Shown here in pieces: positions 12,386-39,534 of a stretch of 41,187 nt of DNA. The translations under genes and the position numbers were made by a program. How positions within the stretch are numbered: position 1 is the stretch's first letter; every line of letters begins with the position of its first letter. The notes under the pieces were generated by a model. That model was not told the DNA's origin. It did no database searches and was given only the letters and a program-made list of their open reading frames with translations. Source of the DNA: Azoarcus indigens (GTDB lineage Bacteria > Pseudomonadota > Gammaproteobacteria > Burkholderiales > Rhodocyclaceae); assembly GCF_004361735.1 (NCBI RefSeq), contig NZ_SNVV01000033.1:1-41187 (forward strand), in the 5' to 3' direction.

Positions 12386-13177
12386 ATGGATTTGAAACTC
12401 GGCAACAGGGTCGCGGTGATCACCGGCCCGGCCAAGGGCATGGGCGCGGCCATCACCCTGGCCTTCGCCCGCGAGGGCTGCCGCCTGGTGCTAGCGGGCC
12501 GCGACATGGCAGCGGTGGCAGAGGTGGCGGCGCAGGCGCGCGCCCTCGGCGCCCAGGTGCTGCAGGTGCAGTGTGACGTCACCCGCAGCAGCGAGACCGA
12601 GGCGCTGGCGGCCGCCGCCATCGAGGCCTACGGCCGTATCGACATCCTGGTGAACGTGGCCGGCGGCACCGGTCCGCTGGGGCGCACCGCCTGGACCACC
12701 AGCCGCGCGGAGTTCGACCAGATCGTCGAGCTCAACCTCACCGGCTGCTTCAACACCATGCATGCGGTGCTGCCCGGCATGGTGGAGCAGCGCTACGGCA
12801 AGATCGTGAATGTCGGCGGCACCTTCGGCATGCGTGGGCGCGCCGGCCGCATGGCCTATTCCACCTCGAAGTGGGGACTGCGCGGCGCCACCAAGTCGGC
12901 GGCGCTGGAGGCCGGCCCCTTCAATGTGAATGTGAACATGGTGGCGCCCGGCATGGTGGACGGCGAGCGCTTCCGCACCAAGGTCATCCCCGAGATGATG
13001 AAGCGCGAGGGCCTCAGCGAAGAACAGGCGGTGGCCCGCCACGCCGCCGACTACGCCCTGCGCCGCATCAGCGACGACGAGGACGTGGCCGCCGCCTGCC
13101 TCTTCCTCGCCTCCGACGTGTCGCGCCAGATCACCGGTGTTGACCTGCCGGTGGATGGCGGCTGGGCCATGCTGTGA
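12386..13177 (+). CDS. short-chain dehydrogenase/reductase (SDR 1)
   Basis: 263 aa Rossmann enzyme. The cofactor motif TGPAKGMG lies at residues 13-20, followed by DILVNVAGG and the catalytic AYSTSKWGL (Tyr and Lys). Thirteen residues before the Tyr, where classical SDRs have the catalytic Ser, this protein has Gly (NVGGTFG), with Thr next to it. The C-terminal ITGVDLPVDGGW is typical of the family. It would oxidise an alcohol or reduce a carbonyl with NAD(P)(H). It is the first gene of the plus-strand unit facing the LysR gene, and its stop overlaps the next start (GTGA). Two paralogues with the same active-site change occur at 20976 and 35847. Confidence 0.92.
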   Translation: MDLKLGNRVAVITGPAKGMGAAITLAFAREGCRLVLAGRDMAAVAEVAAQARALGAQVLQVQCDVTRSSETEALAAAAIEAYGRIDILVNVAGGTGPLGRTAWTTSRAEFDQIVELNLTGCFNTMHAVLPGMVEQRYGKIVNVGGTFGMRGRAGRMAYSTSKWGLRGATKSAALEAGPFNVNVNMVAPGMVDGERFRTKVIPEMMKREGLSEEQAVARHAADYALRRISDDEDVAAACLFLASDVSRQITGVDLPVDGGWAML

Positions 13178-14673
13178 GCATCAACGCCCGCGCCGCGGCC
13201 GGCAGCGCGCCGGCTACCGTATTGCGGGTGGCGGCGGTGCTGGCCGATCCGGCCGCCGGCCGCCTCGACGGCCCGGCCGAGATCCGGCTGGAGCACGGCC
13301 GCATCGCCGCGCTGACGCCCTTGGGCAATGGCTTGCCCGAGGACGCATCCGAAGTGCAGCCGCTGATCGCCCTGCCGGCGCCGGCCAATGCCCACGACCA
13401 CGGCCGCGGCCTGCGCAGCGCCGCCTTCGGCGCCCATGACGAGGCGCTGGAAACCTGGCTGGCCGGCCTCGCCCGCGAACCGCTGGTCGATCCTTGGCTG
13501 CGCGCCGCGGTGGCCTTCGGCCGCATGGTGGAAGGCGGCGCCGGCATCGCCAACCACTGCCACAACACCCAGCGCGGCGACCGCCTGCTGCAGGAGGCGC
13601 AGGGCGTGGCCAAGGCCGCCGCCGACGTCGGCCTGCGCATCGCCTTCGCCCTGCCTTTCGCCGGCCGCAACGCGGTCGTGTATGGCGAGCTGGACCGCCT
13701 GCTGCAGCGTGTGCCGCCGGGCGATCACGACGCCCTGCGCGCGATGCGCGCCGGCGGCCGCAGCCTGGCGGAGAACCTGGCGCTGATGGAGCAGGCCGCC
13801 GCCTTCGAGCACGCGGGCTTCCAGCTGCAATACTGCCCGGTGGGGCCGCAGTGGGTGGATAACGCCACCCTGGCCGCCATCGCCCGCGGCTCCGCCGACA
13901 GCGGCCGCCGGGTGCACATGCACCTGCTGGAGACGCGCTACCAGCGCGAGTGGGCGGACGCCCATTACGCGGACGGGCTGATCGCCCACCTGGACGCCAT
14001 CGGCCTGCTCAGCCCGCGCCTCACCGTCGCCCACGCGGTGTGGCTGACGCCGGCCGAGTGCGAGCTGCTGGCCGAGCGCGGCGTCATCGTCGCCGCCAAC
14101 GCCTCTTCCAACCTGCGGCTGCGCTCCGGCATCGCCCCGGTGCGCGCCTTCCGCGCCAGCGGCCTGCGCTTCGGCATCGGCATGGACGGCATGAGCCTGG
14201 ACGACGACGACGACCTGCTGCGCGAAATGCGCCTGCTGCGCCAGCTCAACCGCGGCACTGCCGGCGAGCCGGATTTCGACGCCGGCGCGCTGTTCACCGC
14301 CGCCTGCGTGGATGGCCGCCGCAGCGTGCTCGGTGACGATGGCGGCGGCCGCATCGCGGTCGGCGCGCCGGCCGACCTGCTGCTGCTGGACAGCCGCCGC
14401 TTCAGCCGCGACTGCCTTGCCCCCGGCCGCGACCAGTGGCTGGCGCTGATGCTGACGCGCATGCGCGCCGAAGACATCGCCGCCCTCTACATCGGCGGCC
14501 GCGCGGTGGCAGTCGGCGGCCGCGCCTGCGGGGTGGACCTGCCGGCCCTGGAGGCCGAACTCACCGCGCTGGCGCGCGCCGCACGCGCGCTGGCACCGCC
14601 GGACGAGAGCCGCATCGGCCGCCTGCGGGCCGGCGTGGAGGACTACTACCGGGCGGGCTGCCATGGCCCCTGA
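13174..14673 (+). CDS. ATZ/TRZ-like metal-dependent amidohydrolase
   Basis: 499 aa, starting at GTG 13174 inside the stop of SDR 1. The fold signatures run in order: a beta-sandwich N-terminus, the HxH pair (H74, H76 in ANAHDHGRG), HCHNTQRG, a metal His in MHLLETRYQ, AHAVWLTPAE, and the catalytic Asp in GIGMDGMSLDDDDD. These match the cytosine-deaminase/chlorohydrolase branch of the amidohydrolase superfamily, whose members remove an amino group or open a ring on N-heterocycles. The normal NAHTH is NAHDH here, but both His are kept. The gene belongs with SDR 1 under likely LysR control. The substrate is not recognisable; deaminase or cyclic amidase are both possible. Confidence 0.88.
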   Translation: MSINARAAAGSAPATVLRVAAVLADPAAGRLDGPAEIRLEHGRIAALTPLGNGLPEDASEVQPLIALPAPANAHDHGRGLRSAAFGAHDEALETWLAGLAREPLVDPWLRAAVAFGRMVEGGAGIANHCHNTQRGDRLLQEAQGVAKAAADVGLRIAFALPFAGRNAVVYGELDRLLQRVPPGDHDALRAMRAGGRSLAENLALMEQAAAFEHAGFQLQYCPVGPQWVDNATLAAIARGSADSGRRVHMHLLETRYQREWADAHYADGLIAHLDAIGLLSPRLTVAHAVWLTPAECELLAERGVIVAANASSNLRLRSGIAPVRAFRASGLRFGIGMDGMSLDDDDDLLREMRLLRQLNRGTAGEPDFDAGALFTAACVDGRRSVLGDDGGGRIAVGAPADLLLLDSRRFSRDCLAPGRDQWLALMLTRMRAEDIAALYIGGRAVAVGGRACGVDLPALEAELTALARAARALAPPDESRIGRLRAGVEDYYRAGCHGP

Positions 14674-15007: not shown

Positions 15008-17368
15008 ATGAAGAATCGAGTGCTAATCAGCTGTCTGCTTGCCGGCGCGGTATTGCCCACCGCCGCCCTGGCGCAGACCACCGACATCGGCCGCGTCGGT
15101 GCCACCGGAGGCGCCAGCGGCGGCACCGCCGACGAGCTCGACGCCCCCACCGCTACCGGCGTCACCCGCAAGGAAGTGGCCGGCGGCCTGATGGTGGAAG
15201 AAGACGTGCCCAAGGCCAAGAGTTCGGTCACCCGCGACTTCATCCAGAAGCAGCAACCCTCGGCCGACGTGTTCCAGATCATGAAGCTTTCGCCCGGCGC
15301 CAACGCCGCCGCCGGCGACGCCTACGGCCTCAACCAGGGCCTGATCTCGGTGCGCGGCCTGGAAGGCGGCCAGATGGGCTTCAACTTCGAAGGCATGCCG
15401 CTCAACGTCGCCTCCAACTGGTCGGTGTTCCCCGGCCAGTGGATAGACACCGAGAACACCGATGTGGTGACGCTGAACCAGGGCACCGCCGACCTCGCCT
15501 CGCCCAACGTCACCGCCACCGGCGGCGTGGTCGATCTCTTCCTGCACAACCCGGAGAAGGAGCGCGGCGGCCTGGTGGATTTCTCGGTCGGCACCAACAA
15601 CTTCAAGCGCGGCTTCTTCCGCTATGAGACCGGCGAAATGGGCGACAGCGGCATGCGCGCCTTCTTCTCCTACTCCCACGCCGAGGCCGACCACTTCCGC
15701 GGCCCCGGCCGCGACCAGAAGGACCACTTCGCCGCCGCGCTGGTGAAGGACTGGGGCGGCGGCAGCAAGACCAAGCTGGCCATGACCTACACCAAGATGC
15801 TGCGCGACGTGTACAAGAACCCGACGCTGGCGCAGTGGAAGGCCGATGGCCTGCAAGGCGACCAGACCAACTACCTGGACCACTACGACACCAGCACCAC
15901 CGGCACCCGCACCAGCTACTACAAGCAGATGCGCAATCCGTGGGAGAACCTGCTGATCTCCGCGCCCAGCGAGTTCGTGCTGTCGGATGACTTCCGCCTC
16001 AGCGTCACCCCCTACTTCTTCTACGGCTACGGCGCTTCCGGCGGGGCGACGGTGTTCGCCAGCGAAAGCTCGGTGGCCTACGGCAACCAGAGCCAGGCGG
16101 TGGATCTCAACGGCAACGGCACCACCACCGACACCGGCGTGCTGGTGTATGCGCCCATCTTCGAGGACAACAAGCGCTACGGCATCACCGTGAAGGGCGA
16201 CTACACCTGGAACAACCACCAACTGGTCGCCGGCATCTGGTACCAGTACTCCCGCGACGAGCTGTACCGCCCCTACAGCACCATGGACGCCGACGGCACG
16301 CCCAGCGACTACAAGGGCGAATCCCACTACGTGCGCACCGCCGACGGCCACAAGATCTACCAGTGGTACCAGGACACCCGCGACCGCTTCAAGGCGCTGT
16401 TCGTCGGCGACACCATCAGCTTCCTAGACGACGCCCTCAAGCTGGACGTCGGCGTGAAGCGCCTGCTGGTGACCCGCGAGGGCGTGAACAAGGTGCCGAA
16501 CGACGTCGGCGACACCGAAGCCAACCGGGATGCCACCCTGCCCACGCTGGCGGTGCGTTACCAGTTCGGCGCCGGCCACCAGGTCTATGCCAGCGCCGGC
16601 AAGGGCTACCGCGTGCTCGCCGCAGGGGCCTTGTATCCGCGTTACAACGCCAGCTCCGGTGCGCTGGCCACCCGCGCCAACCCGGACCAGCCCTCCGAGG
16701 AATCCACCGCCTTCGAGGTCGGCTACCGCTACCACGGCTCGCTGCTCAACCTCTCCACCTCGCTGTTCAACTACCAGTTCAAGAACCGCCAGATCTCCGC
16801 CTCGGTGTGCGATCCGGCCTGCCTGTCGCAGCCCATTAACGGCGGCAAGCAGCGCGCCACCGGCATCGACTTCGAGATGGGCCTGAAGCCGTGGAACAAC
16901 CTGCGGCCCTACTTCTCCGCCGAGTACATGGACACCGAGATCCTCAGCGACCTGGAGACCGGCGGGAACGTGCTGCCGACCAAGGGCAAGAACGCGGTGC
17001 GCAGCCCGAAATGGCAAGCGGCGGCGGCGGTGGATTACGACACCGGCGTGGAGTTCGCCAACCTGGCGGTGAAGTACGTCGGCTCCCAGTACGCCACCTT
17101 CATGAACGACCAGAAGATTCCCAGCTACACCACGGTGGATGCCACCCTGGGCTACCGCTTCCACAGCGCCGGCTTCCTGAAGCGGCCGGAAGTGCGCCTG
17201 AACCTGCTCAACCTGTTCGACAAGCGCTACCTCTCCGGCGTGTATAGCCCCACCTTCAACGCCAATGCCACCACCAGCGTCGGCGGCGCCACCGTGGGCG
17301 GCACCGCGCCCAGCTACCTGGTGGGCAACAGCTTCACCGCCGTCCTCACCTTCGCCACGGGGTTCTGA
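15008..17368 (+). CDS. TonB-dependent receptor of locus A
   Basis: 786 aa from ATG 15008, with GGAG six bases upstream favouring this over the ATG at 14996. A clear signal peptide (MKNRVLISCLLAGAVLPTAA, cut after ALAQ) is followed by a plug domain: EEDVPKAKSSVTRDFIQKQ, PGANAAAGDAYGLNQGLISV, then NEGTAD/LNQG-type strands. A beta-barrel follows, ending in Phe (TFATGF). A Cys pair (CDPAC) sits in one extracellular loop. There is no STN domain. The gene is followed one base after its stop by ExbB, ExbD and TonB genes, so it has a private energising complex. With a LysR activator and amidohydrolases around it, it more likely imports an organic nutrient than a siderophore, but that is inference. 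Confidence 0.93.
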   Translation: MKNRVLISCLLAGAVLPTAALAQTTDIGRVGATGGASGGTADELDAPTATGVTRKEVAGGLMVEEDVPKAKSSVTRDFIQKQQPSADVFQIMKLSPGANAAAGDAYGLNQGLISVRGLEGGQMGFNFEGMPLNVASNWSVFPGQWIDTENTDVVTLNQGTADLASPNVTATGGVVDLFLHNPEKERGGLVDFSVGTNNFKRGFFRYETGEMGDSGMRAFFSYSHAEADHFRGPGRDQKDHFAAALVKDWGGGSKTKLAMTYTKMLRDVYKNPTLAQWKADGLQGDQTNYLDHYDTSTTGTRTSYYKQMRNPWENLLISAPSEFVLSDDFRLSVTPYFFYGYGASGGATVFASESSVAYGNQSQAVDLNGNGTTTDTGVLVYAPIFEDNKRYGITVKGDYTWNNHQLVAGIWYQYSRDELYRPYSTMDADGTPSDYKGESHYVRTADGHKIYQWYQDTRDRFKALFVGDTISFLDDALKLDVGVKRLLVTREGVNKVPNDVGDTEANRDATLPTLAVRYQFGAGHQVYASAGKGYRVLAAGALYPRYNASSGALATRANPDQPSEESTAFEVGYRYHGSLLNLSTSLFNYQFKNRQISASVCDPACLSQPINGGKQRATGIDFEMGLKPWNNLRPYFSAEYMDTEILSDLETGGNVLPTKGKNAVRSPKWQAAAAVDYDTGVEFANLAVKYVGSQYATFMNDQKIPSYTTVDATLGYRFHSAGFLKRPEVRLNLLNLFDKRYLSGVYSPTFNANATTSVGGATVGGTAPSYLVGNSFTAVLTFATGF

Positions 17369-17369
17369 G

Positions 17370-17972
17370 ATGAGTTTCGCAATCGACCAGGATCTGCTGC
17401 ACGCCATCACCATAGACTTGCTCTATGTGTGCGTGGCCATCCTCACCTTCGTCATCATCGAGCGCCTGTTCTACTACGGCTACCTCGGCAGCAGCCGGCG
17501 CAGGATCGCCCGCGCCATCGAGGCGGCGGTGGCGAAGGATGCCTCCCGCCCGCTGCCGGAGCTGCCCGCCGGCAAGGACGTGCTGACGCGCTCGATGGAG
17601 GAATACGTCGCCGCCCAGCGCGGCGGCGAGGTGCCGCGCAGCCGTATCGAGGATCTGTCGGCGGCGCTCTTCCTGCGCGTGGATGGCGGCATCAACCGTG
17701 GGCTGTGGATCCTGGACACCATCGTCACCGCCGCGCCGCTGCTGGGCCTGCTCGGCACCATCCTCGGCATCATGGACACCTTCAACGCCCTCGCCGCCGG
17801 CGGGGTGTCCGATCCGGGCGCGGTCAGCCGCGGCATCGGCTCGGCGCTGTTCGCCACCGCCATCGGCATCGGCACCGCGGTGTATGGCCTCATCGGCCAC
17901 AACATCCTGCACCGCATCGGCGAATGCATCACCGAGGACTTCAAGGGCTTCCTGCTCGAAACCACGGCATGA
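17370..17972 (+). CDS. ExbB-type proton channel subunit (MotA/TolQ/ExbB family)
   Basis: 200 aa. A first helix near the N-terminus (LLYVCVAILTFVIIERLFYY) is followed by a long cytoplasmic loop and then two helices (TAAPLLGLLGTILGIMDTF and ALFATAIGIGTAVYGLIGH). The GLLGT.LG.M..F motif is diagnostic for the family. The protein forms the proton-conducting ring of the inner-membrane motor that powers TonB. Its ATG lies one base after the receptor stop, showing tight coupling to that receptor. It is followed by 72 bp with two hairpins before the ExbD gene. Confidence 0.93.
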   Translation: MSFAIDQDLLHAITIDLLYVCVAILTFVIIERLFYYGYLGSSRRRIARAIEAAVAKDASRPLPELPAGKDVLTRSMEEYVAAQRGGEVPRSRIEDLSAALFLRVDGGINRGLWILDTIVTAAPLLGLLGTILGIMDTFNALAAGGVSDPGAVSRGIGSALFATAIGIGTAVYGLIGHNILHRIGECITEDFKGFLLETTA

Positions 17973-18044: not shown

Positions 18045-18452
18045 ATGAGAGTCTTTCCCCAACGCAAGCAGCGTCAGGCGCGCATCGAGATCATCCCGAT
18101 GATAGACGTGATGATGTTCCTGCTCGCCTTCTTCGTCCTCATCAGCACCAATGTGCTGCCGGCGCTTGGCCTCAAGGTCGACCTGCCGCAGTCGGCGCAG
18201 ACCGAGCGCATCAAGGAACCCAAGCGCCTCACCCTCACCATCGACGCCGAGGGCCACTACTACCTGGAAGGCGAGGCCATCGAGGCCGGCGCGCTGGTGG
18301 GCAGGCTGCGCGGCATGGCGGCCAGCGACGACAAGCCGGCGGTGATCATCGCCGGCGACGGCGGCGCCAACCTGCAGAAGCTGGTGGATGCGCTCGACCT
18401 GCTCAAGGAAGCCGGCATTCCGGCGGCATCCATCATCGCCAAGGCCAAGTGA
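18045..18452 (+). CDS. ExbD/TolR-type biopolymer transport protein
   Basis: 135 aa. The short cytoplasmic N-terminus and single helix carry the family signature IIPMIDVMMFLLAFFVL, with the proton-relay Asp at position 21. A periplasmic domain follows (LKVDLPQS, then LTLTIDAEGHYYLEGEAI and a C-terminal LVDALDLLKEAGI). It works with the ExbB-type protein as stator and proton path for TonB. The stop overlaps the start of the TonB gene by GTGA. Confidence 0.94.
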   Translation: MRVFPQRKQRQARIEIIPMIDVMMFLLAFFVLISTNVLPALGLKVDLPQSAQTERIKEPKRLTLTIDAEGHYYLEGEAIEAGALVGRLRGMAASDDKPAVIIAGDGGANLQKLVDALDLLKEAGIPAASIIAKAK

Positions 18453-19147
18453 GCATGGCGCGCGACCCGATGGAACGCTACTTCAACGGCGCGGCGCTGC
18501 TGCTCACCGCTGGCGCCACCGCGGCGCTGCTGGCGTTGCCGCCGGTAACGCGCGCGGTGACACCGCCGCCGCCGGAGGAGGCCAGCATCACGGTGGCGCT
18601 GGAAGAACCGCCGCCGGCACCCGAGCCGCCGCCGCCCCCACCGCCCAAGCCCCCGGAGCCGAAACCGCTGCCGCCCAAGCCGACCCCGAAACCGCCGCCG
18701 CCCAAGGCGCCGCCGCCGCCCGTTGCGCTGCCGGAGCCGGCGATTCCGGTGCCGCCGCAGCCGGCACCGCCGCCTCCGCCACCGCAGCCGGTGCAGCCGC
18801 CGCCCCAGCCGCAGGCCGCGCCGCAGCCGCCCCGGCCCAGCACCGCCAGCCTGGAGGCCGGCTACGTTGCCCGCCTGCGCGGCTACATCCGCGGCATCAC
18901 CGAGTACCCGACCTCCGGGGAAGCCCGCCGGCAGCGGCCGGAAGGCGCGGTGGTGGTGCGCTTCACCCTGGACCGCGCCGGCAAGCTGGTCGACGCCGAG
19001 GTGGAAAAGGGCTCCAACTCCCGCATCCTGGACAAGCAGGCGCTCGCCATCGTGCGCGGCGGCAGCTACCCGGCGATGCCGGCGGAGCTGTGGGCGGGCG
19101 AGGGTAAGCATGAATTCACCGTCACCGTGGAGTTCGTGCTGCCATGA
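18449..19147 (+). CDS. TonB-type energy transducer
   Basis: 232 aa if started at GTG 18449, which overlaps the ExbD stop; an ATG two codons later (18455) is an alternative. One N-terminal helix (ALLLTAGATAALLALPP) anchors it. A very Pro-rich spacer (about residues 38-130, with PPKPPEPKPLPPKP-type runs) spans the periplasm. The C-terminal TonB domain (from ~YVARLRGYIRGITEYPTSGE, then GAVVVRFTLDRAGKLVDAEV) ends in EFVLP. It transfers motor energy to the receptor encoded at 15008. Its stop overlaps the next start by ATGA, so the transport and enzyme genes are translated as one unit. Confidence 0.94.
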   Translation: MSMARDPMERYFNGAALLLTAGATAALLALPPVTRAVTPPPPEEASITVALEEPPPAPEPPPPPPPKPPEPKPLPPKPTPKPPPPKAPPPPVALPEPAIPVPPQPAPPPPPPQPVQPPPQPQAAPQPPRPSTASLEAGYVARLRGYIRGITEYPTSGEARRQRPEGAVVVRFTLDRAGKLVDAEVEKGSNSRILDKQALAIVRGGSYPAMPAELWAGEGKHEFTVTVEFVLP

Positions 19148-20103
19148 TCCCCGGCGATTCCTTCATGCGCGGGCCGCTGCCGCCCGCCGCCGGCATGGAC
19201 GACCCGGCGGCACTGCGCCGCGCCATCCGCAAGGGCGAGTTCCGCGGCTTCACCAACCTGGTGGCGCGCAACCATGTGCAGGCCAACCTGATGATCCTGC
19301 CGGCCGAACATGCGGACGCCTTCGAGGCCTACTGCCGGCGCAACGCCGCCGCGCTGCCGCTGCTGGCGCGCAGCCGGCCGGGCGAGGTCGGCATGCCGCA
19401 GCTGGCGGCCGACCTCGACCTGCGCCGCGATGTCGGCGGCTACATGGTGTTCCGCGAGGGCAAGCTGGTGGCCACGCCGGCCGACATCCGCGAGCTGTGG
19501 CGCGAGGACTTCGTCGCCTTCGCCATCGGCTGCTCCTTCTCCTTCGAACGGGTGCTGCAGGTGGAGGGCGTGCGCCTGCGGCACCTGGACGAGGGCAACG
19601 TGTCGGCGATGTATGTGACCGACATCGAGACCGTGCCGGCCGGCCGCTTCGGCGGTCCGCTGGTGGTGTCCATGCGGGCGCTCACCGCCGCCGACGCCAT
19701 CCGCGCCACCATCGTTTCGGCGCGCCACCCGCAGTTCCACGGCGCGCCCATCCACCTCGGCATGCCGCAGGCCATCGGCATCGATGACCTCGCCCGGCCC
19801 TACGGCGGCCACGGCCTCACCTCGCTGCGGGCGGACGAGCTGCCGGTGTTCTGGCCCTGCGGCGCAACCGCCCAGCTCGCCGCGCTGCGGGCGGCGCTGC
19901 CGCTGTGCATCACCCATTACAAGGCTCACATGCTGGTCACCGACCTGCCCATCGCCGACGTCGTCGGCGCGCCGGCGGGCTGGGGGCCGGGCCATGCGCA
20001 AGAGCCGCCTTCAAGCTCTTTCATCCACACCTCCGCACACAACACCGACACACCGGCGGCCGCGCCAGCCACGGCGCCGCGCCCCGGCGGGCAACAGGAG
20101 TAA
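19144..20103 (+). CDS. DUF1445 / putative hydro-lyase (D-glutamate cyclase-like) family protein
   Basis: 319 aa. The family N-terminus is clear (LRRAIRKGEFRGFTNLVA, then HVQANLMILP), as is the core (DIRELWREDFVAFAIGCSFSFE) and the end of the domain (LCITHYKAHMLVTDL). Members are annotated as putative hydro-lyases; mammalian relatives convert D-glutamate to 5-oxoproline. Here a C-terminal tail of ~45 low-complexity residues (Pro/Ala/Thr) exceeds the usual length. Start ATG overlaps the TonB stop. In this context a role in removing water from, or closing, an amide-containing intermediate is possible but unproven. Confidence 0.8.
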   Translation: MIPGDSFMRGPLPPAAGMDDPAALRRAIRKGEFRGFTNLVARNHVQANLMILPAEHADAFEAYCRRNAAALPLLARSRPGEVGMPQLAADLDLRRDVGGYMVFREGKLVATPADIRELWREDFVAFAIGCSFSFERVLQVEGVRLRHLDEGNVSAMYVTDIETVPAGRFGGPLVVSMRALTAADAIRATIVSARHPQFHGAPIHLGMPQAIGIDDLARPYGGHGLTSLRADELPVFWPCGATAQLAALRAALPLCITHYKAHMLVTDLPIADVVGAPAGWGPGHAQEPPSSSFIHTSAHNTDTPAAAPATAPRPGGQQE

Positions 20104-23310: not shown

Positions 23311-23906
23311 ACAGCATCGCCGTGTTCTGCGGCTCTAACTTCGGCAACTCGCCGGCCTATGCCGAAGCCGCCGCCGCACTCGGCCGCTGCCTGGCGGCGC
23401 GCGGCATCCGCCTGGTCTACGGCGGCACCCACAAGGGCCTGATGGGCGTGCTCGCCGACGCGGTGCTCGCCGCCGGTGGCGAAGCCTACGGCGTCATCAC
23501 CGAACGCCTCGCCGCCAAGGGCCATCTGCACCAGCAGCTGAGCGCCCACGAGGTGGTGGCCGACATGCGCGTGCGCAAGGCGCGCATGGCCGAACTGGCC
23601 GATGGCTTCATCGCCCTGCCGGGCGGCCTGGGCACGCTGGAAGAACTGTTCGAAGCCGCCACCCTGACCCAGCTCGGCGACCAGGCCAAGCCCTGCGCCG
23701 GTCTCAACGTCAGCGGCTTCTTCGACCCGCTGCGCGCCCTGCTGCAGCACATGGCCCAGGCCCAGTTCCTGCGCCAGGAACACTGCGACATGGTGCTGCT
23801 GGACGCCGACCCGGACGCGCTGATCACCACCATGGCAGCATGGACGCCGCCGGTGGTGGAAAAGTGGTTCGCCCCGCCCGCCGCAACCGCAGGAGCAAGC
23901 GCATGA
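23301..23906 (+). CDS. LOG-family phosphoribohydrolase (TIGR00730-like)
   Basis: 201 aa. Motifs include VFCGSNFG at the N-terminus, VYGGTHKGLMG, the catalytic RKARM (92-96) and PGGLGTLEE (107-115), the signature of LOG proteins. Known members hydrolyse the N-glycosidic bond of nucleoside 5'-monophosphates (cytokinin nucleotides and ordinary NMPs), freeing the base. AGGAGG upstream of ATG 23301 lies inside the preceding gene, with a 10-bp overlap. Its place beside two amidohydrolases of base-degrading families hints that the substrate of the locus could be base- or nucleotide-like. LOG proteins also occur widely as solitary genes, so this link is inference. Confidence 0.92.
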   Translation: MGLNSIAVFCGSNFGNSPAYAEAAAALGRCLAARGIRLVYGGTHKGLMGVLADAVLAAGGEAYGVITERLAAKGHLHQQLSAHEVVADMRVRKARMAELADGFIALPGGLGTLEELFEAATLTQLGDQAKPCAGLNVSGFFDPLRALLQHMAQAQFLRQEHCDMVLLDADPDALITTMAAWTPPVVEKWFAPPAATAGASA

Positions 23907-33277: not shown

Positions 33278-34063
33278 ATGGCCGCCCTGGCAATAGACAA
33301 CATCAGCAAGACCTTCGACATCGACGGCCGCAGCGTGACCGCGCTCGATTCGGTGAGCCTGGACCTCGCCCCCGGCGAGTTCGGCGCCCTGATCGGCCCC
33401 TCCGGCTGTGGCAAGTCCACGCTGCTGCGCATGGTCGCGGACATCGTGTCGCCCACCAGCGGGCACATCTCGGTGGCCGGCGAGGCGCCACGCAAGGCGC
33501 GGCTGGCGCACCACATCGGCTTCGTCTTCCAGGATGCCACGCTGCTGCCCTGGCGCACGGTGAGCGAGAACATCCGCCTGCCGCTGGAGGTGGTGGGCGG
33601 GCGTCGCGCGGTGGACCCGGCGGCCATCCAGGCGCTGGTGGAGTTGGTGGGGCTGGCCGGTTTCGAGCATGCGCGGCCCTCCCAGCTTTCCGGCGGCATG
33701 CAGCAGCGCTGCGCCATCGCCCGCGCGCTGGTGACTTCGCCGCAGATGCTGTTGCTGGACGAGCCCTTCGGCGCGCTGGACGAGATCATGCGCTTCCGCA
33801 TGAACCTGGAGCTGTTGCGCATCTGGGCGGAGTCGCGCACCACCGCGCTGATGGTGACCCACTCCATCGAGGAGGCGGTGCTGATGGCCGACCGCATCTT
33901 CGTGATGGCGGCGCGACCGGGCCGCATCGTCGATGAGATCAAGGTGGACCTGCCGCGCCCGCGCCGGCTGTCGCAGATCGGCGAGCCGGACTTCGTCGCC
34001 CTCGTGGAGCGGGCGCGCAAGAGCCTGTTCGGCGACATGGTGGAGATGCTGCAGGATGCTTGA
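33278..34063 (+). CDS. ABC transporter ATP-binding protein (NitT/TauT family)
   Basis: 261 aa. Walker A GPSGCGKST (40-48), Q-loop FQDATLLPWRTV, signature LSGGMQQR (137-144), Walker B MLLLDEP (157-163), and switch His in VTHSIEEA. The LLPWRTV and FGALDEIMR wording is typical of the nitrate/taurine/aliphatic sulfonate/thiamine-precursor importer family. First gene of locus B. Its stop overlaps the next start by 8 bp. No gene for a periplasmic binding protein is present nearby. Confidence 0.94.
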   Translation: MAALAIDNISKTFDIDGRSVTALDSVSLDLAPGEFGALIGPSGCGKSTLLRMVADIVSPTSGHISVAGEAPRKARLAHHIGFVFQDATLLPWRTVSENIRLPLEVVGGRRAVDPAAIQALVELVGLAGFEHARPSQLSGGMQQRCAIARALVTSPQMLLLDEPFGALDEIMRFRMNLELLRIWAESRTTALMVTHSIEEAVLMADRIFVMAARPGRIVDEIKVDLPRPRRLSQIGEPDFVALVERARKSLFGDMVEMLQDA

Positions 34064-34850
34064 GATGCGCAGACCGGGCCGTGGCGCCGGCCGCGCCCTC
34101 ATTCGCTGGCTGCCGCCGGCGCTGGTCTTGCTGGCGGCGCTCGCCGGCTGGGAGGCGGCGGCGCGGCTGGGCTGGCTGCCGCTGACGGTGGCGCGGCCCA
34201 GCGCGGTGCTGCGGCTGTTGGCGGCGGAGTACGCCGGCCTGCTGGCCGAACTGGCGCCGACGCTGTTCGCTGCCGCCTGGGGCTATCTGCTGGCCCTGGC
34301 GGTAGCACTGGCGCTGGGCTCGCTGGCCTACCTGTACAAGTCGCTGGAGGGCACGGTGCTGACGGTAGGCGCGGTGTTCAACAGCATCCCCATCATCGCC
34401 ATCGCGCCGGTGCTCATCATCTGGCTGGGGCTGTCCTTGTCCACCCGGGTGGCGATCACCGCGGTGGTGTGCTTCTTCCCGCTGCTGATCGCCTTCGTGC
34501 AGGGGCTCAACACCCGCCGCGCCACGGCCGCCGAGCTGTTTACCGTGCTGGCGGCCACGCCGCTGCAGCGCTTCCGCCTGCTGGCGCTGCCGGGGGCGCT
34601 GCCCTACCTCTTCATGGGCATGAAGATCACTGCGCCCTTCGCGCTGCTAGGCGCGCTGGTGGGCGAATGGACCGGGGCGGAGTCCGGCCTGGGCGTGGTA
34701 ATGCTGAACGCGATGTTCGGCCTGCAGGTGGATCGCCTGTGGGCGACGGTGCTGCTGGCCTGCGTGGTGTCCACCGCCGCCTACGCCTACGTTTGCCTGC
34801 TGGAGCGGCTGGCACTGCCGGCCGACCTGCGCGAAGGGGAGGCGGTATGA
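34056..34850 (+). CDS. ABC transporter permease 1 (NitT/TauT family)
   Basis: 264 aa from ATG 34056. About six transmembrane helices; the first is LPPALVLLAALAGWEAAARL. The BPD_transp_1 domain covers about 75-250, with the ATPase-contact loop around FTVLAATPLQRFRLLALPGALPYLF (here in two parts: EAA-like TPLQRFRLLALPGA). It ends LREGEAV. It differs clearly from permease 2, so the channel is probably a heterodimer. The short ORF 34847-34921 that overlaps its stop (24 aa, MKRLFHPCARR) may couple translation to permease 2. Confidence 0.92.
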   Translation: MLEMRRPGRGAGRALIRWLPPALVLLAALAGWEAAARLGWLPLTVARPSAVLRLLAAEYAGLLAELAPTLFAAAWGYLLALAVALALGSLAYLYKSLEGTVLTVGAVFNSIPIIAIAPVLIIWLGLSLSTRVAITAVVCFFPLLIAFVQGLNTRRATAAELFTVLAATPLQRFRLLALPGALPYLFMGMKITAPFALLGALVGEWTGAESGLGVVMLNAMFGLQVDRLWATVLLACVVSTAAYAYVCLLERLALPADLREGEAV

Positions 34851-34917: not shown

Positions 34918-35754
34918 ATGAGCGCGGTGACCTTGAGCAAGCGCGGCAGCCCCGCACTGGGCGCCATCCGTCGCGCCACCCTGGGCCGCGGTCTGCCGGC
35001 GCCTTTGCGGGTGACGCTGGCGCGGCTGGTCAATTACCTCGCCTGCCTGGGCCTGGCGCTGTTGCTGTGGCATGCGCTGGTGAGTGTGTTCCAGGTGCCG
35101 GCCTACCTCATGCCCAGCCCGGCGCAGTGCTTTGCCGCGATGGCGCGCGAGGGGGCCTTGTTGGCTGGCGCTGTGGGCTGGACGGTGTTCGCCACCCTGC
35201 TGGGCATGGCGATCAGCCTGGTGCTGGCGACGCTGCTGGCGGTGGGCTTCATCGCCTGCCCGCTGCTGGACCGGGTGGTGATGCCGCTGATCCTGCTGAT
35301 GCGCACCGTGCCGATGATCGCGGTGGCTCCCATCCTGGTGCTGGTGTTCGGCCGCGAGCAGGGCAACACCGTCGGCATGGTGGTGCTGCTCACCTTCTTC
35401 CAGATCATGCTGGCGGCGAAGAAGGGCTTCCAGGCGCCGGGCCGCAACCTGATGGAGCTGATGCACACCTGCGGCGCCGGCTTCTGGCAGACGCTGTTCA
35501 AGGTGCGCCTGCCGTGCGCGCTGCCCTACCTCTTCACCGGCCTGCGCATCGCCGCCGGCACCGCCATCCTGTGCGCGATGTTCGCCGAGTGGCTGTCCGG
35601 CGCGCCCGGCCTCGGCTCGCTGATGCTGGATGCCTACGCCCGGCAGGACTTCGCGCTGATGTGGGCGGCAGTGCTGGCCAGCACCAGCGCCGCCTACGTG
35701 TTCTTCACCCTCACCATCGCCTTCGAGGTGGCGGTGATCGAGTGGGGGCAGTGA
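34918..35754 (+). CDS. ABC transporter permease 2 (NitT/TauT family)
   Basis: 278 aa, ATG 34918 with GGGAGGG eight bases upstream. A soluble basic N-terminus (~35 residues) precedes six helices, starting LACLGLALLLWHALVSVFQV. YLMPSPAQCFAAM is typical of this permease family, as is the EAA-type loop LMHTCGAGFWQTLFKVRLP. With permease 1 and the ATPase it forms an inner-membrane importer; the usual system has one permease gene, so two unlike subunits is noteworthy. Confidence 0.92.
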   Translation: MSAVTLSKRGSPALGAIRRATLGRGLPAPLRVTLARLVNYLACLGLALLLWHALVSVFQVPAYLMPSPAQCFAAMAREGALLAGAVGWTVFATLLGMAISLVLATLLAVGFIACPLLDRVVMPLILLMRTVPMIAVAPILVLVFGREQGNTVGMVVLLTFFQIMLAAKKGFQAPGRNLMELMHTCGAGFWQTLFKVRLPCALPYLFTGLRIAAGTAILCAMFAEWLSGAPGLGSLMLDAYARQDFALMWAAVLASTSAAYVFFTLTIAFEVAVIEWGQ

Positions 35755-35846: not shown

Positions 35847-36671
35847 ATGGAAACAACCGGAATGGCCGCAAGCGAAAAACCACTGGCAGAGACCGGCGTG
35901 ATGCACGGCAAGGTCGCCTTCATCACCGGCGCCACCCGCGGCCTGGGCCGCGAGCTGGCGCTGATGCTGGCCCGGGCCGGCGCCGATGTGGCGCTGGTCG
36001 GCCGCGACCGCGAGGCGGGCGATGCGGTGGCGGCAGAGATCCGCCAGCTGGGCCGCGAGGCGCTGGCGCTGGCCGCCGACGTGACCGCCGGCGACGACAT
36101 GGAGTTGGCTGCGCGGGCCGCGCTGGCCTGCTTCGGCAAGGTGGACCTGCTGCTGTGCGTGGCTGGCGTCGGCAGTCCGCGCAAGCCGGTGTGGGAATGC
36201 GATGCCGCCGACTACCACGCCTGCTTCGACATCAACGTGCTCGGCGTGATGCTGGCGCTGCGCGCAGTGCTGCCGGCCATGGTGGCGCGCAAGCAGGGCA
36301 GGGTGGTGGTGATAGGCGGCACCTACGGCCACAAGGGCGTGGCCGGCTCGGCACTGTACGCCGCATCGAAGTGGGCCCTGCGCGGGCTGGTGAAATCGGT
36401 GGCGCGCGAAGTCGGCGAACACGACATCACCGCCAACCTGGTCTCGCCCGGCGGCGTCGCCGGCCCGCGGCTCACCAGGCTGTTCCAGCAATCCGCCGCC
36501 CGCGAAGGCATGAGCTATGAGGCGGTGCTGGAGCGCTTCACCGCCGGCAGCGCGCTCGGCCGCCTGGTGGAAGGCGAAGACATCGCCCGCGCGGTGCTGC
36601 ACCTGGCCTCGGACGCCGGTCGCATGTGCACCGGGCAGGACATCGTGGTGGATGCGGGCACGGTGGTGTAG
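35847..36671 (+). CDS. short-chain dehydrogenase/reductase (SDR 3)
   Basis: 274 aa from ATG 35847 (GGAG eight bases upstream); the frame is open back to an ATG at 35760, but those extra 29 residues do not look like the family. Cofactor motif TGATRGLG, DLLLCVAGVG and LYAASKWALRG. The catalytic Ser is again Gly (VIGGTYG), as in SDR 1 and 2, and the usual Asn of the NxAG motif is Cys here. ends CTGQDIVVDAGTVV. Its kinship with the two SDRs of locus A suggests that loci A and B serve one pathway. Confidence 0.9.
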   Translation: METTGMAASEKPLAETGVMHGKVAFITGATRGLGRELALMLARAGADVALVGRDREAGDAVAAEIRQLGREALALAADVTAGDDMELAARAALACFGKVDLLLCVAGVGSPRKPVWECDAADYHACFDINVLGVMLALRAVLPAMVARKQGRVVVIGGTYGHKGVAGSALYAASKWALRGLVKSVAREVGEHDITANLVSPGGVAGPRLTRLFQQSAAREGMSYEAVLERFTAGSALGRLVEGEDIARAVLHLASDAGRMCTGQDIVVDAGTVV

Positions 36672-36761
36672 CGGCGCTGCGGCGCAAGCAACCCGGCCCG
36701 AAGGTAGCGCGTATCCGCAAGCCACAGCCCCGAACCAGAACGAACCAAATACAGAGAGAAC

Positions 36762-38006
36762 ATGAGCGATACCCCAGCCCCTTCCGCCGCAGCGCTGCCG
36801 CCCGGCGCCGATCCCGCACTTGCCGGCTACGGCATAGACACCGTCGCCCTGCACGCAGGCCGCCACCCTGAGCGCTTCCACGGCGTGGTCAATCCGCCCG
36901 TCTATCACGCCTCCACCTTCATCTTCGAAACGGTGGAGCAGCTCATCGACACCCGCCACGAACGTGCCGGCGGCGCCTTCGAGCAATTCACCTATGGCCG
37001 CGAAGGCACGCCCACCACCCGCGCGCTGGAAGACGCGGTGAGTACGCTGGAGGGCGGCTACCGCGCGGTGGTCACCTCCTGCGGGCTGGGCGCCATCGCC
37101 GCCTCGCTCACCGCCTTCCTGTCGGCGGGCGACCACCTGCTCATCATCGACAGCGTGTATGGCCCGGCGCGCGCCTTCTGCGACGAATTCCTCATCCGCT
37201 TCGGCGTGGAAGTGACCTACTTCGACCCGCTGATCGGCGCCGGCATCCGCGAACTGTTCCAGCCGAACACCAAGGTGGTCTACCTGGAATCGCCCTGCTC
37301 GCTCACCTTCGAGGTGGTGGACGTGCCGGCCATCGCCGCCGCCTGCCGGGAGCGCGGCATCACCACCATCATGGACAACACCTGGGCCTCGCCGCTGTGC
37401 TTCCGCCCGCTGGACCATGGCGTGGACGTCTCGCTGCATGCCGCCACCAAGTACATCTCCGGCCACTCCGACCTGATGCTGGGCATCGCGGTGTGCACCG
37501 AGCCAGCCTTCATCCCGGTGAAGAAAACCGCCTCCGGTTCCGGTTACTGCGGCGGCCCGGACGACGTCTACATGGCGCTGCGCGGCCTGCGCACCCTGCC
37601 CATCCGCATGAAGCGCCACCAGGAAACGGCCACCCATGTGGCGCGCTGGCTGCAGCAGCGGCCGGAAGTGGCGCGGGTGATGTACCCGGCGCTGTCCGAC
37701 GACCCCGGCCATGCACTGTGGAAGCGCGACTTCCACGGCGCCTCCGGCCTCTTCGGCGCGGTGCTGCAGCCCTGCTCGCCGGCGCAGCTCGCCGCCATGC
37801 TGGACCACATGGAGCTCTTCCGCATGGGCTATTCCTGGGGCGGCTACGAAAGCCTGGTGGTGCCCACCTGGCCGGCCACGCTGCGCACCGCCACCGAGTG
37901 GAAAGACCCCGGCCCGGCGCTGCGCTTGCACGCCGGCCTGGAAGACCCGGACGACCTCATCCGCGACCTGGAAAAAGGCTTCGCCCGCCTCGCCGCGGCA
38001 GCCTGA
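36762..38006 (+). CDS. Cys/Met-metabolism PLP-dependent enzyme (cystathionine beta-lyase-like)
   Basis: 414 aa fold-type I PLP enzyme. Features in order: VNPPVYHASTFIFET, FTYGREGTPTTRALE, YLESPCSLTFEVVD, TTIMDNTWASPLCFRPLDHG and the PLP-binding Lys230 in HAATKYISGHSD. YCGGPDDVYMALRGLRTL is close to the MetC-type beta-lyase branch, and the C-terminal YSWGGYESLVVP is typical. It would cleave a C-S (or similar beta/gamma) bond, releasing thiol, ammonia and keto acid. Biosynthetic or catabolic role cannot be told apart by sequence; being downstream of a transporter and an SDR suggests catabolism. Confidence 0.9.
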   Translation: MSDTPAPSAAALPPGADPALAGYGIDTVALHAGRHPERFHGVVNPPVYHASTFIFETVEQLIDTRHERAGGAFEQFTYGREGTPTTRALEDAVSTLEGGYRAVVTSCGLGAIAASLTAFLSAGDHLLIIDSVYGPARAFCDEFLIRFGVEVTYFDPLIGAGIRELFQPNTKVVYLESPCSLTFEVVDVPAIAAACRERGITTIMDNTWASPLCFRPLDHGVDVSLHAATKYISGHSDLMLGIAVCTEPAFIPVKKTASGSGYCGGPDDVYMALRGLRTLPIRMKRHQETATHVARWLQQRPEVARVMYPALSDDPGHALWKRDFHGASGLFGAVLQPCSPAQLAAMLDHMELFRMGYSWGGYESLVVPTWPATLRTATEWKDPGPALRLHAGLEDPDDLIRDLEKGFARLAAAA

Positions 38007-38028
38007 ACGGGCCCACAGGAATCCACTC

Positions 38029-39534
38029 ATGCACGCACCCGATCCCGGCCTGATCGCCGCCATCAAGACCCGCCTCGCCGCCGGCCCGCAGCCCATGCTG
38101 ATCGGCGGCGACTGGACCCAGGCCGCCGCCGGCCAGACCTTCGACAGCCACGACCCCGCCACCGGCGAGCGGCTGGCGAGCGTCGCCCGCGCCGGCAGCG
38201 AAGACATCGACCGCGCAGTCGCCGCCGCCCGCGCCGCCTTCGACGGCCCCTGGGGCCGCATGCGGCCGGCCGAACGCCAGCGCATCCTGCTCAGGCTCGC
38301 CGACCTGGTCGAAGCGCACTTCGAGGAGCTGTGCATCCTCGACACCCTGGACATGGGCGCGCCCATCCGCCACACCCGCGGCGCCAAGGACTGGCTGCTC
38401 GGCCTGCTGCGCTACTACGCCGGCATGGCCACCGCGCTCTACGGCCAGACGGTGACCCCCTCCACCACCAGCGACATCTTCGCCTGCACCGTGCGCGAGC
38501 CGGTGGGCGTGGTCGGCGCCATCGTGCCCTGGAACGGCCCGCTCATCGCCTCCATCTGGAAAGCCGGCCCGGTGCTCGCCACCGGCTGCACCCTGGTGCT
38601 CAAGCCCTCGGAGGAGGCACCGCTGTCGCCGCTGCGCTTCGCCGAACTGGCGCTGCAGGCCGGCCTGCCGCCGGGCGTGCTCAACGTCGTGCCCGGCTAC
38701 GGCCACGATGCCGGCGCCGCGCTGGCCGCCCACCCCGGCGTGGACAAGATCGCCTTCACCGGCTCTGTGCCCACCGCCCAGGCCATCATGCGGGCCGCCG
38801 CCGGCAACCTGAAGCGGCTGTCGCTGGAGCTGGGCGGCAAGTCGCCCAACATCGTCTTCGCCGATGCCGACCTGGAAGCCGCGGTGCCGGCCGCCGCCTG
38901 GGCCGCCTTCGCCAACGCCGGCCAGGTCTGCAGCGCCGGCACCCGGCTGTTCGTCGAGCGCGCGGTGCATGACGACTTCGTCGCCGCCGTCGCCCGCTAC
39001 GCCGCCGGCCTCAAGGTCGGCTCCGGCCTGGACCCCGCCACCGAGATCGGCCCGCTGGTGTCGCCCCGCCAGCTGGAGCGGGTGCGCGGCTACGTCGCCG
39101 CCGGCGAGGAAGAAGGCGCCCGCCTGCTCGCCGGCGGCGACCGCCCCACCGGCGCCGCGCTGGCCGCCGGCAGCTACCTTGCCCCCACCGTGTTCGGCGA
39201 AGTCGCCGACCACATGCGGATCGCCCGCGAGGAAATCTTTGGCCCGGTGCTCGCCGCCATGCCCTTCGACAGCGCCGAAGAAGTCCTCGCCCGCGCCAAC
39301 GCCTCGCCCTACGGCCTGGGCGCCGGCGTATGGACGCGCGACGTCGGCCGCGCCCACGCCTTCGCCCGTCGCCTGCAATCCGGCTCGGTGTGGATCAACT
39401 GCTACAACGTCCTCGACCCCGCGCTGCCCTTCGGCGGCTACAAGATGAGCGGCTTCGGCCACGAATCCGGCACGCAGCAGCTGGAGGAATACATGCAGGT
39501 GAAGGGCGTGTGGATCGCGGGGGAGATGCGCTGA
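38029..39534 (+). CDS. NAD(P)-dependent aldehyde dehydrogenase
   Basis: 501 aa, ATG 38029 with AGGA nine bases upstream. Catalytic residues are all present: N169 (VPWNGP), E267 (LELGGKSP) and C301 (GQVCSAGTRLF). FTGSVPTA and EEIFGPVL are family motifs, and the C-terminus (GGYKMSGFGHESG) is standard for ALDHs. It oxidises an aldehyde to the acid. Last gene of locus B, followed by a terminator. In a chain with the oxygenase and SDR steps it would complete alcohol-aldehyde-acid oxidation, as inference. Confidence 0.95.
   Translation: MHAPDPGLIAAIKTRLAAGPQPMLIGGDWTQAAAGQTFDSHDPATGERLASVARAGSEDIDRAVAAARAAFDGPWGRMRPAERQRILLRLADLVEAHFEELCILDTLDMGAPIRHTRGAKDWLLGLLRYYAGMATALYGQTVTPSTTSDIFACTVREPVGVVGAIVPWNGPLIASIWKAGPVLATGCTLVLKPSEEAPLSPLRFAELALQAGLPPGVLNVVPGYGHDAGAALAAHPGVDKIAFTGSVPTAQAIMRAAAGNLKRLSLELGGKSPNIVFADADLEAAVPAAAWAAFANAGQVCSAGTRLFVERAVHDDFVAAVARYAAGLKVGSGLDPATEIGPLVSPRQLERVRGYVAAGEEEGARLLAGGDRPTGAALAAGSYLAPTVFGEVADHMRIAREEIFGPVLAAMPFDSAEEVLARANASPYGLGAGVWTRDVGRAHAFARRLQSGSVWINCYNVLDPALPFGGYKMSGFGHESGTQQLEEYMQVKGVWIAGEMR

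Follow-up and report, generated by a model that had tools for sequence, protein, structure and literature searches.

Two loci of Azoarcus indigens are probably parts of one accessory system for the uptake and degradation of a nitrogen-rich heterocycle

Main finding

Two loci of Azoarcus indigens, A and B, are probably the window's share of one accessory catabolic system. It would number up to about 28 genes and serve to import and degrade a heterocycle rich in nitrogen. Gene families and relatives point to an aminopyrimidine-like ring, either nucleotide- or nucleobase-like or thiamine-like, as its most likely substrate. The window is the whole stretch of DNA that was analysed, 41,187 nucleotides of contig NZ_SNVV01000033.1 (here C33). 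The earlier note had described the loci as one split uptake-and-catabolism system. This holds in that parts of A and B co-occur in a single cluster of a related genome, on shared contigs and in their pattern across 195 genomes; however, the core of locus A is often found without B. No description of this gene set was found in literature searches.

Gene content of the window

Gene models and Pfam/NCBIfam scans bore out the 18 genes of the earlier note at their positions, all on the forward strand and with approximate starts. Locus A begins with SDR1, a short-chain dehydrogenase (12386..13177; Pfam/NCBIfam, with a Y-x-x-x-K motif read by eye), which is present at 55% identity or more in 70 of 79 related loci. 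Ahd1 (13174..14673; Amidohydro_1) is a TRZ/ATZ-type amidohydrolase and a probable aminohydrolase (deaminase). Its best NCBIfam model is 8-oxoguanine deaminase, although at 111.9 bits it falls far under the equivalog cut-off of 532. The uptake genes are a TonB-dependent outer-membrane receptor (15008..17368; Plug and barrel), ExbB (17370..17972; MotA_ExbB), ExbD (18045..18452; ExbD) and TonB (18449..19147; TonB_C).

The DUF1445 protein (19144..20103), of a Pfam family now named 'D-glutamate cyclase', scores 307.6 with the NCBIfam putative hydro-lyase model, slightly under its cut-off of 324, and is 62-69% identical in the mapped clusters. The PhyH-type 2-oxoglutarate/Fe(II) oxygenase (20108..20974; Pfam) is found at 55-65% in 7 of 12 genomes tested, the remaining five having no match or one at E >= 2.5e-14. 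SDR2 (20976..21788; Pfam/NCBIfam) is 56-69% identical in the mapped clusters.

The AllB-like enzyme (21820..23310; Pfam/NCBIfam) is a cyclic amidohydrolase of the allantoinase/hydantoinase/dihydroorotase superfamily. Residues H62, H64, K147, H182, H238 and D311, which we take to be the binuclear metal ligands of cyclic amidohydrolases, are invariant in nine sequences, as are R66 and N96. The enzyme barely reaches one allantoinase model (TIGR03178, 358.3 against a cut-off of 357.85), falls short of PRK06189 (376.8 against 631) and PRK08044 (263.3 against 688), and exceeds the cut-off of one dihydroorotase subfamily (322.9 against 279.05). The LOG-type protein of the nucleotide N-glycosidase family (23301..23906) reaches the subfamily model TIGR00730 (167.4 bits, cut-off 96.35) but not the equivalog for cytokinin-riboside-5'-phosphate phosphoribohydrolase (NF058542, 103.1 against 300). 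The locus ends with a DUF3830 protein (23903..24313; PF12903, 101.6 bits), 53-73% identical in the mapped clusters where present and not seen in that of G395. DUF3830 is not specific to this setting, since SDR1 and AllB accompany it in 5 of 19 neighbourhoods inspected in the family, excluding the window.

Locus B encodes the ATPase (33278..34063) and two permeases (34056..34850 and 34918..35754) of an ABC importer of the nitrate/taurine/ThiXYZ-like class (Pfam/NCBIfam). The importer read from this locus is confirmed in these three components but lacks a binding protein there. The ATPase is 66-69% identical in G395, G396 and G152. SDR3 (35862..36671; Pfam/NCBIfam) is 59-66% identical in G395, G396, G402 and G152 and 54% in RL4; the three SDRs share about 40% identity with one another. 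The PLP enzyme (36762..38006; Pfam/NCBIfam) belongs to the cystathionine beta-lyase family of C-S or C-N lyases, passing TIGR01324 (469.9 bits, cut-off 365.9) but neither PRK09028 (467.4, cut-off 655) nor PRK05967 (454.5, cut-off 649). An aldehyde dehydrogenase (ALDH; 38029..39534; Pfam/NCBIfam), 60-68% identical in the mapped clusters, completes the locus.

Two further genes, both on the reverse strand, are assigned to the window's share by their relatives. A LysR-type regulator (11118..12110; Pfam HTH_1 and LysR_substrate) lies divergent from locus A, is 66% identical to its counterpart in the G152 cluster and is represented in 53 of the 79 related loci by a relative at 40% identity or more. 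The other gene encodes a 1114-aa fusion of a beta-propeller and an amidohydrolase (7094..10438; Pfam PD40 and Amidohydro_1) and has relatives within the G152 cluster (55.6% identity over 1051 aa) and within the Telmatospirillum cluster (55% over 1050 aa). It is probably exported, its N terminus carrying, as read by eye, a twin-arginine-like motif and a possible lipobox.

Co-occurrence of the two loci

The genome G152, from the same family, contains a single 34-kb cluster of 28 genes (C1:1869640-1903787), consisting of homologues of all 18 listed proteins and the LysR regulator plus nine further genes. As all 19 proteins are matched within this one cluster, the grouping of A with B goes beyond chance. 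The PLP enzyme (72-81%) and the PhyH oxygenase (55-65%) also share a contig in seven genomes besides G152. The test that the earlier note set for its claim came out mostly in favour. Among 195 genomes of a single genus, PLP (at least 70%) and SDR1 are confined to the same eight; the probability of this pattern comes to 2.2e-14 on the assumption, untrue here, of independent genomes. Every PLP orthologue seen among these 195 was accompanied by SDR1, and in the sets tested orthologues at 70-81% occur only in genomes with SDR1 or an AllB-like gene. Eight genomes from the PLP search behind the shared-contig count also contain more distant PLP paralogues (56% or less).

It could be argued that A and B are unrelated systems adjacent by chance, as 9 kb of unrelated genes separates them and the core of A occurs more often without B than with it. 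This reading is close to refuted by the single G152 cluster, the shared contigs and the identical presence pattern. That the loci form parts of a single system is, on these comparisons, strongly supported.

Parts elsewhere in the genome

The two-locus layout is correct for the window, but further parts are found on contigs C41 and C5, so that the system spans three contigs or more, C33 included. C41 encodes a binding protein, an IPNS-type 2-oxoglutarate oxygenase, HyuA and HyuB. The binding protein would be fitting for the locus B importer. Only two PDB relatives were found at E <= 0.001, 3ix1 (a formylaminopyrimidine-binding protein, 5.4e-20) and 4nmy; the ligand of the closest relative with a solved structure is a thiamine pyrimidine. 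Its NCBIfam match is a weak one to the SsuA family (48.8, cut-off 163.5). The best model for HyuA is caprolactamase alpha (443.9 bits, under the cut-off of 1000). C5 encodes a Rieske oxygenase, a ferredoxin reductase nearby and, adjoining the oxygenase, a glutamine-synthetase-like (GS-like) ligase whose best model is gamma-glutamylputrescine synthetase (253.7 against a cut-off of 650).

The ABC-transporter version

Among the collected loci, the commoner form of the locus-A core is a simpler one that has an ABC transporter and no PLP gene of locus B. The core comprises LysR, SDR1, the AllB-like enzyme, the deaminase, LOG and DUF3830, some of which individual loci may miss. No PLP orthologue (at least 65%) occurs in 18 hand-picked genomes with this version, the best match being 54%. 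Independent occurrence of the loci, the earlier note's ground for refutation, is thus found on one side, A without B being frequent. The ABC version also encodes barbiturase-type and acetamidase/formamidase-family proteins, and in Skermanella its ring opener, of the cyanuric-acid-hydrolase type, passes the AtzD equivalog cut-off. The AtzD-type ring opener and the formamidase-like gene are both unmatched in the window and the mapped full clusters.

The receptor branch

In the receptor tree the window receptor pairs with that of Telmatospirillum, within a group of 11 rows (100/98) that includes receptors controlled by TPP riboswitches, these appearing in the next group out, and four Acetobacteraceae receptors of unassigned substrate. 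It is about 60% identical to the Telmatospirillum and G152 receptors and 28-38% to the remaining relatives, of which those linked to PnuC are at 34-37%. The relatives occur in two functional contexts: beside TPP riboswitches, accompanied by PnuC and a kinase-like (phosphotransferase) gene, or beside nucleotidase-, phosphatase- (PhoD-like) or purine-permease-like genes. ExbD-TonB-receptor-ExbB operons are kept in several genomes of the wider family. Judged by these relatives, the compound would be of nucleotide or thiamine type.

The window has no Rfam match to a TPP riboswitch, hence none upstream of the receptor. None was found in two Telmatospirillum stretches, the C5 and C41 stretches or seven loci of the ABC version, nor beside 16 receptor relatives from the same order. 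Neither PnuC nor the kinase is matched in the window, in the mapped full clusters or along the C5 and C41 stretches.

Proposed pathway

The compound would cross the outer membrane through the receptor with its own ExbB/ExbD/TonB and may be trimmed in the periplasm by the propeller-amidohydrolase. The ThiY-like binding protein and the locus B importer would carry it inward. Side groups and ring would be oxidised by the Rieske oxygenase with its reductase, two 2-oxoglutarate oxygenases, the GS-like gamma-glutamyl ligase, three SDRs and ALDH. Ahd1 may take off the ring amino group; the AllB-like enzyme, HyuAB and DUF1445 may open cyclic amides. Elimination of a beta substituent would be the part of the PLP enzyme, and cleavage of an N-glycosidic bond that of LOG. 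LysR probably regulates the system.

Candidate substrates

A clue to the compound class is the presence together in the window of LOG, allantoinase-like and 8-oxoguanine-deaminase-like enzymes (NCBIfam). The earlier guess of a modified purine, pyrimidine or hydantoin would fit the evidence. A modified nucleoside or nucleobase (oxidised, alkylated or a 7-deazapurine such as queuosine/queuine), imported as nucleotide or nucleoside, is a possible but tentative candidate. These three enzymes, the additional barbiturase-type and formamidase-family proteins of the ABC version and the nucleotidase-, PhoD- or purine-permease-like genes flanking the wider-family receptor operons all favour it. The window receptor, however, groups with the thiamine-type branch and not with the nucleotide-type receptors of the same order, and ordinary bases leave the PLP lyase and GS-like ligase unexplained. 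Thiamine (vitamin B1) or its pyrimidine half is rather unlikely; here the ABC version would degrade hydroxymethylpyrimidine, and the full version would add thiazole degradation and outer-membrane thiamine import. In the sister group, TPP riboswitches precede the receptors, which are accompanied by PnuC and a phosphotransferase, an arrangement like that of the Bacteroides OMthi/pnuT thiamine transporters (PMC5613172). Binding proteins are nearest ThiY and THI5 or 4nmy, and a deaminase and dehydrogenases, together with the acetamidase/formamidase-family protein that the ABC version has, would suit an aminopyrimidine with CH2OH and 2-methyl groups. This is countered by the low receptor identity to PnuC-linked receptors, the absence of a TPP riboswitch from the clusters searched, the lack of an obvious job for LOG or the cyanuric-acid-type ring opener, and the lack of a thiamine-cleaving enzyme among the genes identified. 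The acetamidase-family gene is absent from the window and mapped full clusters, for which thiamine was weighted slightly down.

A pterin or folate derivative is improbable. Pterin deaminases belong to the same family as the Ahd1-type deaminase, and an M20-type amidase/peptidase gene adjoins the receptor in G402; yet that gene was noted only there, and the transport clues point elsewhere. An s-triazine or cyanuric-acid-like pathway is more improbable still. It would account for the Skermanella ring opener and the TRZ/ATZ resemblance of Ahd1, but AtzD is unmatched in the window and mapped full clusters, and to our knowledge SDRs, a PLP enzyme and oxygenases are foreign to known triazine routes. 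The aminopyrimidine-like ring is the preferred reading.

Significance

About 15 to 28 conserved genes, common to distant proteobacteria and assembled whole in a single cluster within the family of the window, suggest an unrecognised complete catabolic pathway that provides its own uptake across two membranes. It is possible, though the odds are somewhat against it, that these genes form a previously undescribed pathway, at most about 28 genes in size, for the full degradation of a vitamin (thiamine, for example) or of a modified nucleobase such as a 7-deazaguanine (queuine-type) base. The compound would be scavenged at the outer membrane, trimmed in the periplasm, glutamylated and oxygenated several times, and each of its rings would be opened, with the simpler, commoner ABC version serving a related or partial substrate. 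We know of no degradation genes for such a compound. Through the system, DUF3830, DUF1445, LOG and a separate branch of TonB receptors would be linked to one process. Should thiamine, a pyrimidine vitamer or a modified base prove to be the substrate, the system would reveal how bacteria of soil and roots dispose of such compounds, and would offer candidate genes for this. The gene set is delimited sharply enough that a binding assay could name the compound.

Comparison with known systems

The allantoin/purine ureide route (AllB) is similar in that the AllB-like enzyme is at one curated allantoinase cut-off and malate synthase G, which could take up glyoxylate, lies near some clusters. It differs in that the enzyme is far under two other allantoinase models and over a dihydroorotase cut-off, and many additional oxygenases and dehydrogenases are present. 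Cyanuric acid/barbiturate catabolism (AtzD, barbiturase) shares the ABC-version ring opener and a TRZ/ATZ-like deaminase, whereas here SDR1 and the AllB-like gene are adjacent and AtzD is unmatched in the window and mapped full clusters. TPP-riboswitch thiamine uptake (receptor, PnuC/PnuT and kinase) resembles the system in its receptor branch and in the binding protein nearest ThiY; the present case differs in its large degradative gene set, with no PnuC or kinase match and no TPP riboswitch where searched. The ATP-dependent caprolactam/5-oxoproline amidases (CapAB, HyuAB) are similar in the best match of HyuA, but its score is under the cut-off and it forms part of a heterocycle-type gene set. 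Aniline-type routes combine amine glutamylation with Rieske oxygenation. The GS-like ligase, which adjoins a Rieske oxygenase and has a ferredoxin reductase close by, is similar to these, although its best model is gamma-glutamylputrescine synthetase, well under cut-off.

Gene content of the window

The 18 genes that the earlier note had named in locus A (12386-24313, SDR1 to DUF3830) and locus B (33278-39534, ABC ATPase to ALDH) were all recovered by gene models and Pfam/NCBIfam searches, at the same positions and in the same families, with gene starts being approximate. The three short-chain dehydrogenases, SDR1, SDR2 and SDR3, share around 40% pairwise identity. The reading of locus B as an ABC importer holds for the ATPase and two permeases, but the binding protein is absent from this locus. 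A propeller-amidohydrolase homologue is located at 7094-10438, outside the coordinates originally noted, and is 55.6% identical over 1051 aa to its counterpart in G152, a genome of the same family. The Rfam search of the window gave no match, and PDB relatives of SDR1 and of the TRZ/ATZ-type amidohydrolase Ahd1 were generic matches only.

The two loci are separated by a trypsin-like peptidase gene and a Na+/H+ antiporter 1 gene (25715-28863), and by a minus-strand siderophore group (28927-33001) consisting of a FhuA-like receptor, FecR (31527-32507) and an ECF sigma factor (32504-33001). The FhuA-like receptor scores 525 bits, below the NCBIfam cut-off of 803. The siderophore group keeps its position in the congener G130; the peptidase and antiporter stretch is not found between the loci there. 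At the window start, a PepSY-type membrane protein (487-2193) adjoins another TonB-dependent receptor (2204-4390). At the other end lies an RTX calcium-binding nonapeptide-repeat protein (39637-40920), part of whose gene (39638-40098) matches two places on the G130 contig.

Loci A and B as one system

A single cluster of 28 genes in G152 (C1:1869640-1903787) unites the two loci. It begins with SDR2, PhyH, DUF1445, TonB, ExbD, ExbB, the receptor, ALDH and the cystathionine beta-lyase-family PLP enzyme, followed by SDR3, permease 2, permease 1, the ABC ATPase, a binding protein, an IPNS-type oxygenase, HyuA and HyuB. The order continues with the propeller-amidohydrolase, LysR, a second SDR1, Ahd1, ferredoxin reductase, a GS-like ligase and a Rieske oxygenase, and ends with SDR1, the AllB-like cyclic amidohydrolase, LOG and DUF3830. 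No clear stranger gene was seen between the members when reading frames of 120 codons or more were considered. Each of the 19 window proteins that were compared, LysR and the 18 from the two loci, has a homologue in this cluster. For 17 of them identity is 60-80% and the alignment spans 79-100% of the window protein; the receptor aligns as two overlapping segments at 56-60%, and TonB at 71% over 102 of 232 residues. Homologues of both loci also occur together in one stretch of a Novosphingobium sp. RL4 plasmid.

Several parts missing from the window are encoded elsewhere in its genome. Contig C41 carries HyuA (67% identity), HyuB (73%), the IPNS-type oxygenase (58%) and a binding protein (59%); contig C5 carries the Rieske oxygenase (64%), the GS-like ligase (54%) and a ferredoxin reductase (59% to its G152 counterpart).

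The PLP enzyme of locus B was sought in eight genomes picked as TonB/Hyu-type or similar. An orthologue (72-81%) was found in seven, where other full-length matches reach at most 56%; the best match in the eighth, G401, is just 53%. In the same seven genomes a PhyH orthologue (55-65%) shares the contig with PLP, and five other genomes of this search gave no PhyH match or one at E >= 2.5e-14. Maps of the seven contain Ahd1, the AllB-like gene, SDR1, LysR, HyuA, HyuB, the IPNS-type 2OG oxygenase, SDR3, PLP, DUF3830, ALDH, LOG, SDR2, PhyH and DUF1445, not each gene being present in each genome. The Rieske oxygenase and GS-like ligase are additionally present in those stretches that were checked. 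The ABC genes of locus B were mapped in G395 and G396 only, and the mapped stretch of G395 has no LOG and no DUF3830. The G402 contig starts at HyuB and its AllB-like and Ahd1 genes therefore sit on another contig (L115); SDR1 and LysR were not seen in this genome.

The earlier note proposed that the loci form one split system whose genes should recur together across genomes. This was borne out in Novosphingobium, the genus of G399, where PLP (70-78%; next best 52%) and SDR1 of locus A (E <= 1e-75) occur in exactly the same 8 of 195 genomes, with up to 9 (PLP) and 13 (SDR1) first-look candidates scored per genome, so that a missed orthologue is possible. Full overlap by chance has a probability of 2.2e-14 assuming independent genomes, although the genomes are not independent and the genes are linked. 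The alternative that loci A and B are unrelated chance neighbours was rejected on the joined clusters, this co-occurrence and the contigs shared by PLP and PhyH, and the two loci are regarded as one system.

Distribution and related loci

The congener G130 matches window positions 10669-24494 and 28927-38009 at 95-96%, with the two closer together and nearly all of the intervening 24.5-28.9 kb (approximately) missing. G130 also shares the Rieske, GS-like and HyuA genes with the window's genome. A second congener, G026, gave no DUF3830 and no receptor match, and the system therefore looks accessory from these sequence comparisons.

A scan of 84,980 species genomes with a nine-sequence AllB-like alignment returned at least 79 loci, which do not constitute a census. 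Many loci end at contig ends, so the gene counts among the 79 listed are lower bounds, at set identity limits: at least 70 for SDR1, 53 for LysR, 53 for the binding protein SBP1, 34 for an Ahd1-type deaminase, 28 for DUF3830, 21 for an AtzD-type ring opener, 17 for LOG, 16 for a formamidase/acetamidase-family protein, 6 for HyuA and 4 for PLP. SDR1 is present in 50 of the 52 listed loci of at least 20 kb.

In the loci collected, a simpler locus-A core with an ABC transporter and no PLP gene, termed the ABC version, is the commoner form. A PLP orthologue of at least 65% was found in none of 18 self-chosen genomes of this type (best 54%); the nineteenth genome in that search, G152, has PLP at 80%. 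In six ABC-version loci (L032, L057, L058, L083, L084 and L134) the neighbours of the AtzD-type ring-opening amidohydrolase gene are SDR1, the AllB-like gene, two genes for NMT1-type binding proteins and one for a deaminase. A further module, seen in L069, L111, L127 and L130, combines an AllB-like protein, which is the second such copy in L111 and in L130, with a second deaminase and a protein of the ornithine-cyclodeaminase family (Pfam assignment on L127).

DUF3830 was considered as a specific marker and rejected: it is present in 48 of 395 family genomes, and SDR1 and AllB accompany it in just 5 of 19 examined neighbourhoods besides the window. A second context within the family, lacking SDR1 and AllB, is found in L037 and L045-L053. 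In L049 DUF3830 adjoins a DUF4147/MOFRL (glycerate-kinase-type) gene, relatives of which recur in five second-context loci. DUF3830 has no PDB relative at E 0.1. No literature mention of it was found, nor a pathway matching the gene combination or thiamine, pterin, queuosine or hydroxymethylpyrimidine catabolism; subscription journals were thinly covered, making both absences weak.

Predicted substrate and uptake

Import is predicted to proceed through the receptor and the ABC importer, as follows from their protein families. The order in which oxygenation, glutamylation, deamination, ring opening and beta-elimination would occur is one that we infer. The family of the PLP enzyme allows cleavage of C-S and C-N bonds, and the enzyme could act on either. 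A reading of the PLP enzyme as a mimosine-type C-N lyase was rejected: it found no support in this analysis, and the papers listed for it concern plants.

Four lines of clues, none decisive, come from the binding protein, the receptor, the enzymes and the AllB-like residues, and an aminopyrimidine-like heterocycle is therefore the favoured substrate class, with thiamine-type and nucleoside-type compounds both kept as readings. The enzyme clues are the deaminase, the AllB-like hydrolase and LOG. R66 and N96 are invariant in the nine-sequence AllB-like alignment and are reminiscent of the carboxylate-binding pair of dihydroorotase. The AtzD-type ring opener of the ABC version scores 549.6, over the equivalog cut-off of 360; the window and the mapped full clusters gave no match to it or to the formamidase-family gene. 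At E <= 0.001 the PDB contains two relatives of the C41 binding protein: the formylaminopyrimidine-binding protein 3ix1 (5.4e-20) and 4nmy (1.2e-16). Sphingomonas formosensis has a homologue of the C41 protein in L079. SBP1 and SBP2, the binding proteins of the ABC version, match THI5 too, and a taurine-binding protein weakly.

The receptor is matched by 14 of 72,556 plasmid records at E <= 1e-40. PnuC and a phosphotransferase accompany the receptor relative in 5 of 11 opened neighbourhoods (L171, L175 and L192-L194), four of which have a TPP riboswitch upstream; these four receptors are sphingomonad relatives. Of the mapped Telmatospirillum, RL4 and Sphingomonas formosensis loci, Rfam covered two Telmatospirillum stretches, in which no TPP riboswitch was found. 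In the receptor tree the window and Telmatospirillum receptors are sisters (100/100), and the pair joins the TPP/PnuC and Acetobacteraceae receptors (100/98). Next is a Methylosinus receptor adjoining a cyclic-nucleotide phosphodiesterase gene.

The receptor is matched at E <= 1e-70 in 15 of the 399 genomes of the window's taxonomic order, the window's own genome among them. In several of these cases ExbD, TonB, receptor and ExbB stay side by side and are flanked by 5'-nucleotidase-, PhoD- or permease-like (L197-L212; in part purine-permease-like) genes. Six flanking genes were confirmed by Pfam, one only as a metallophosphatase, the remainder being named by similarity or by eye. L197-L212 are possible outer-membrane nucleotide uptake systems. 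No TPP riboswitch was found near the 16 other same-order receptor matches. Calling the substrate thiamine from the receptor alone was rejected, given the riboswitch in four sphingomonads versus none of these 16, several of which flank nucleotidase- or phosphatase-like genes. In Bacteroides, thiamine is reported to be able to enter via a TPP-riboswitch-controlled outer-membrane receptor together with PnuT (PMC5613172).
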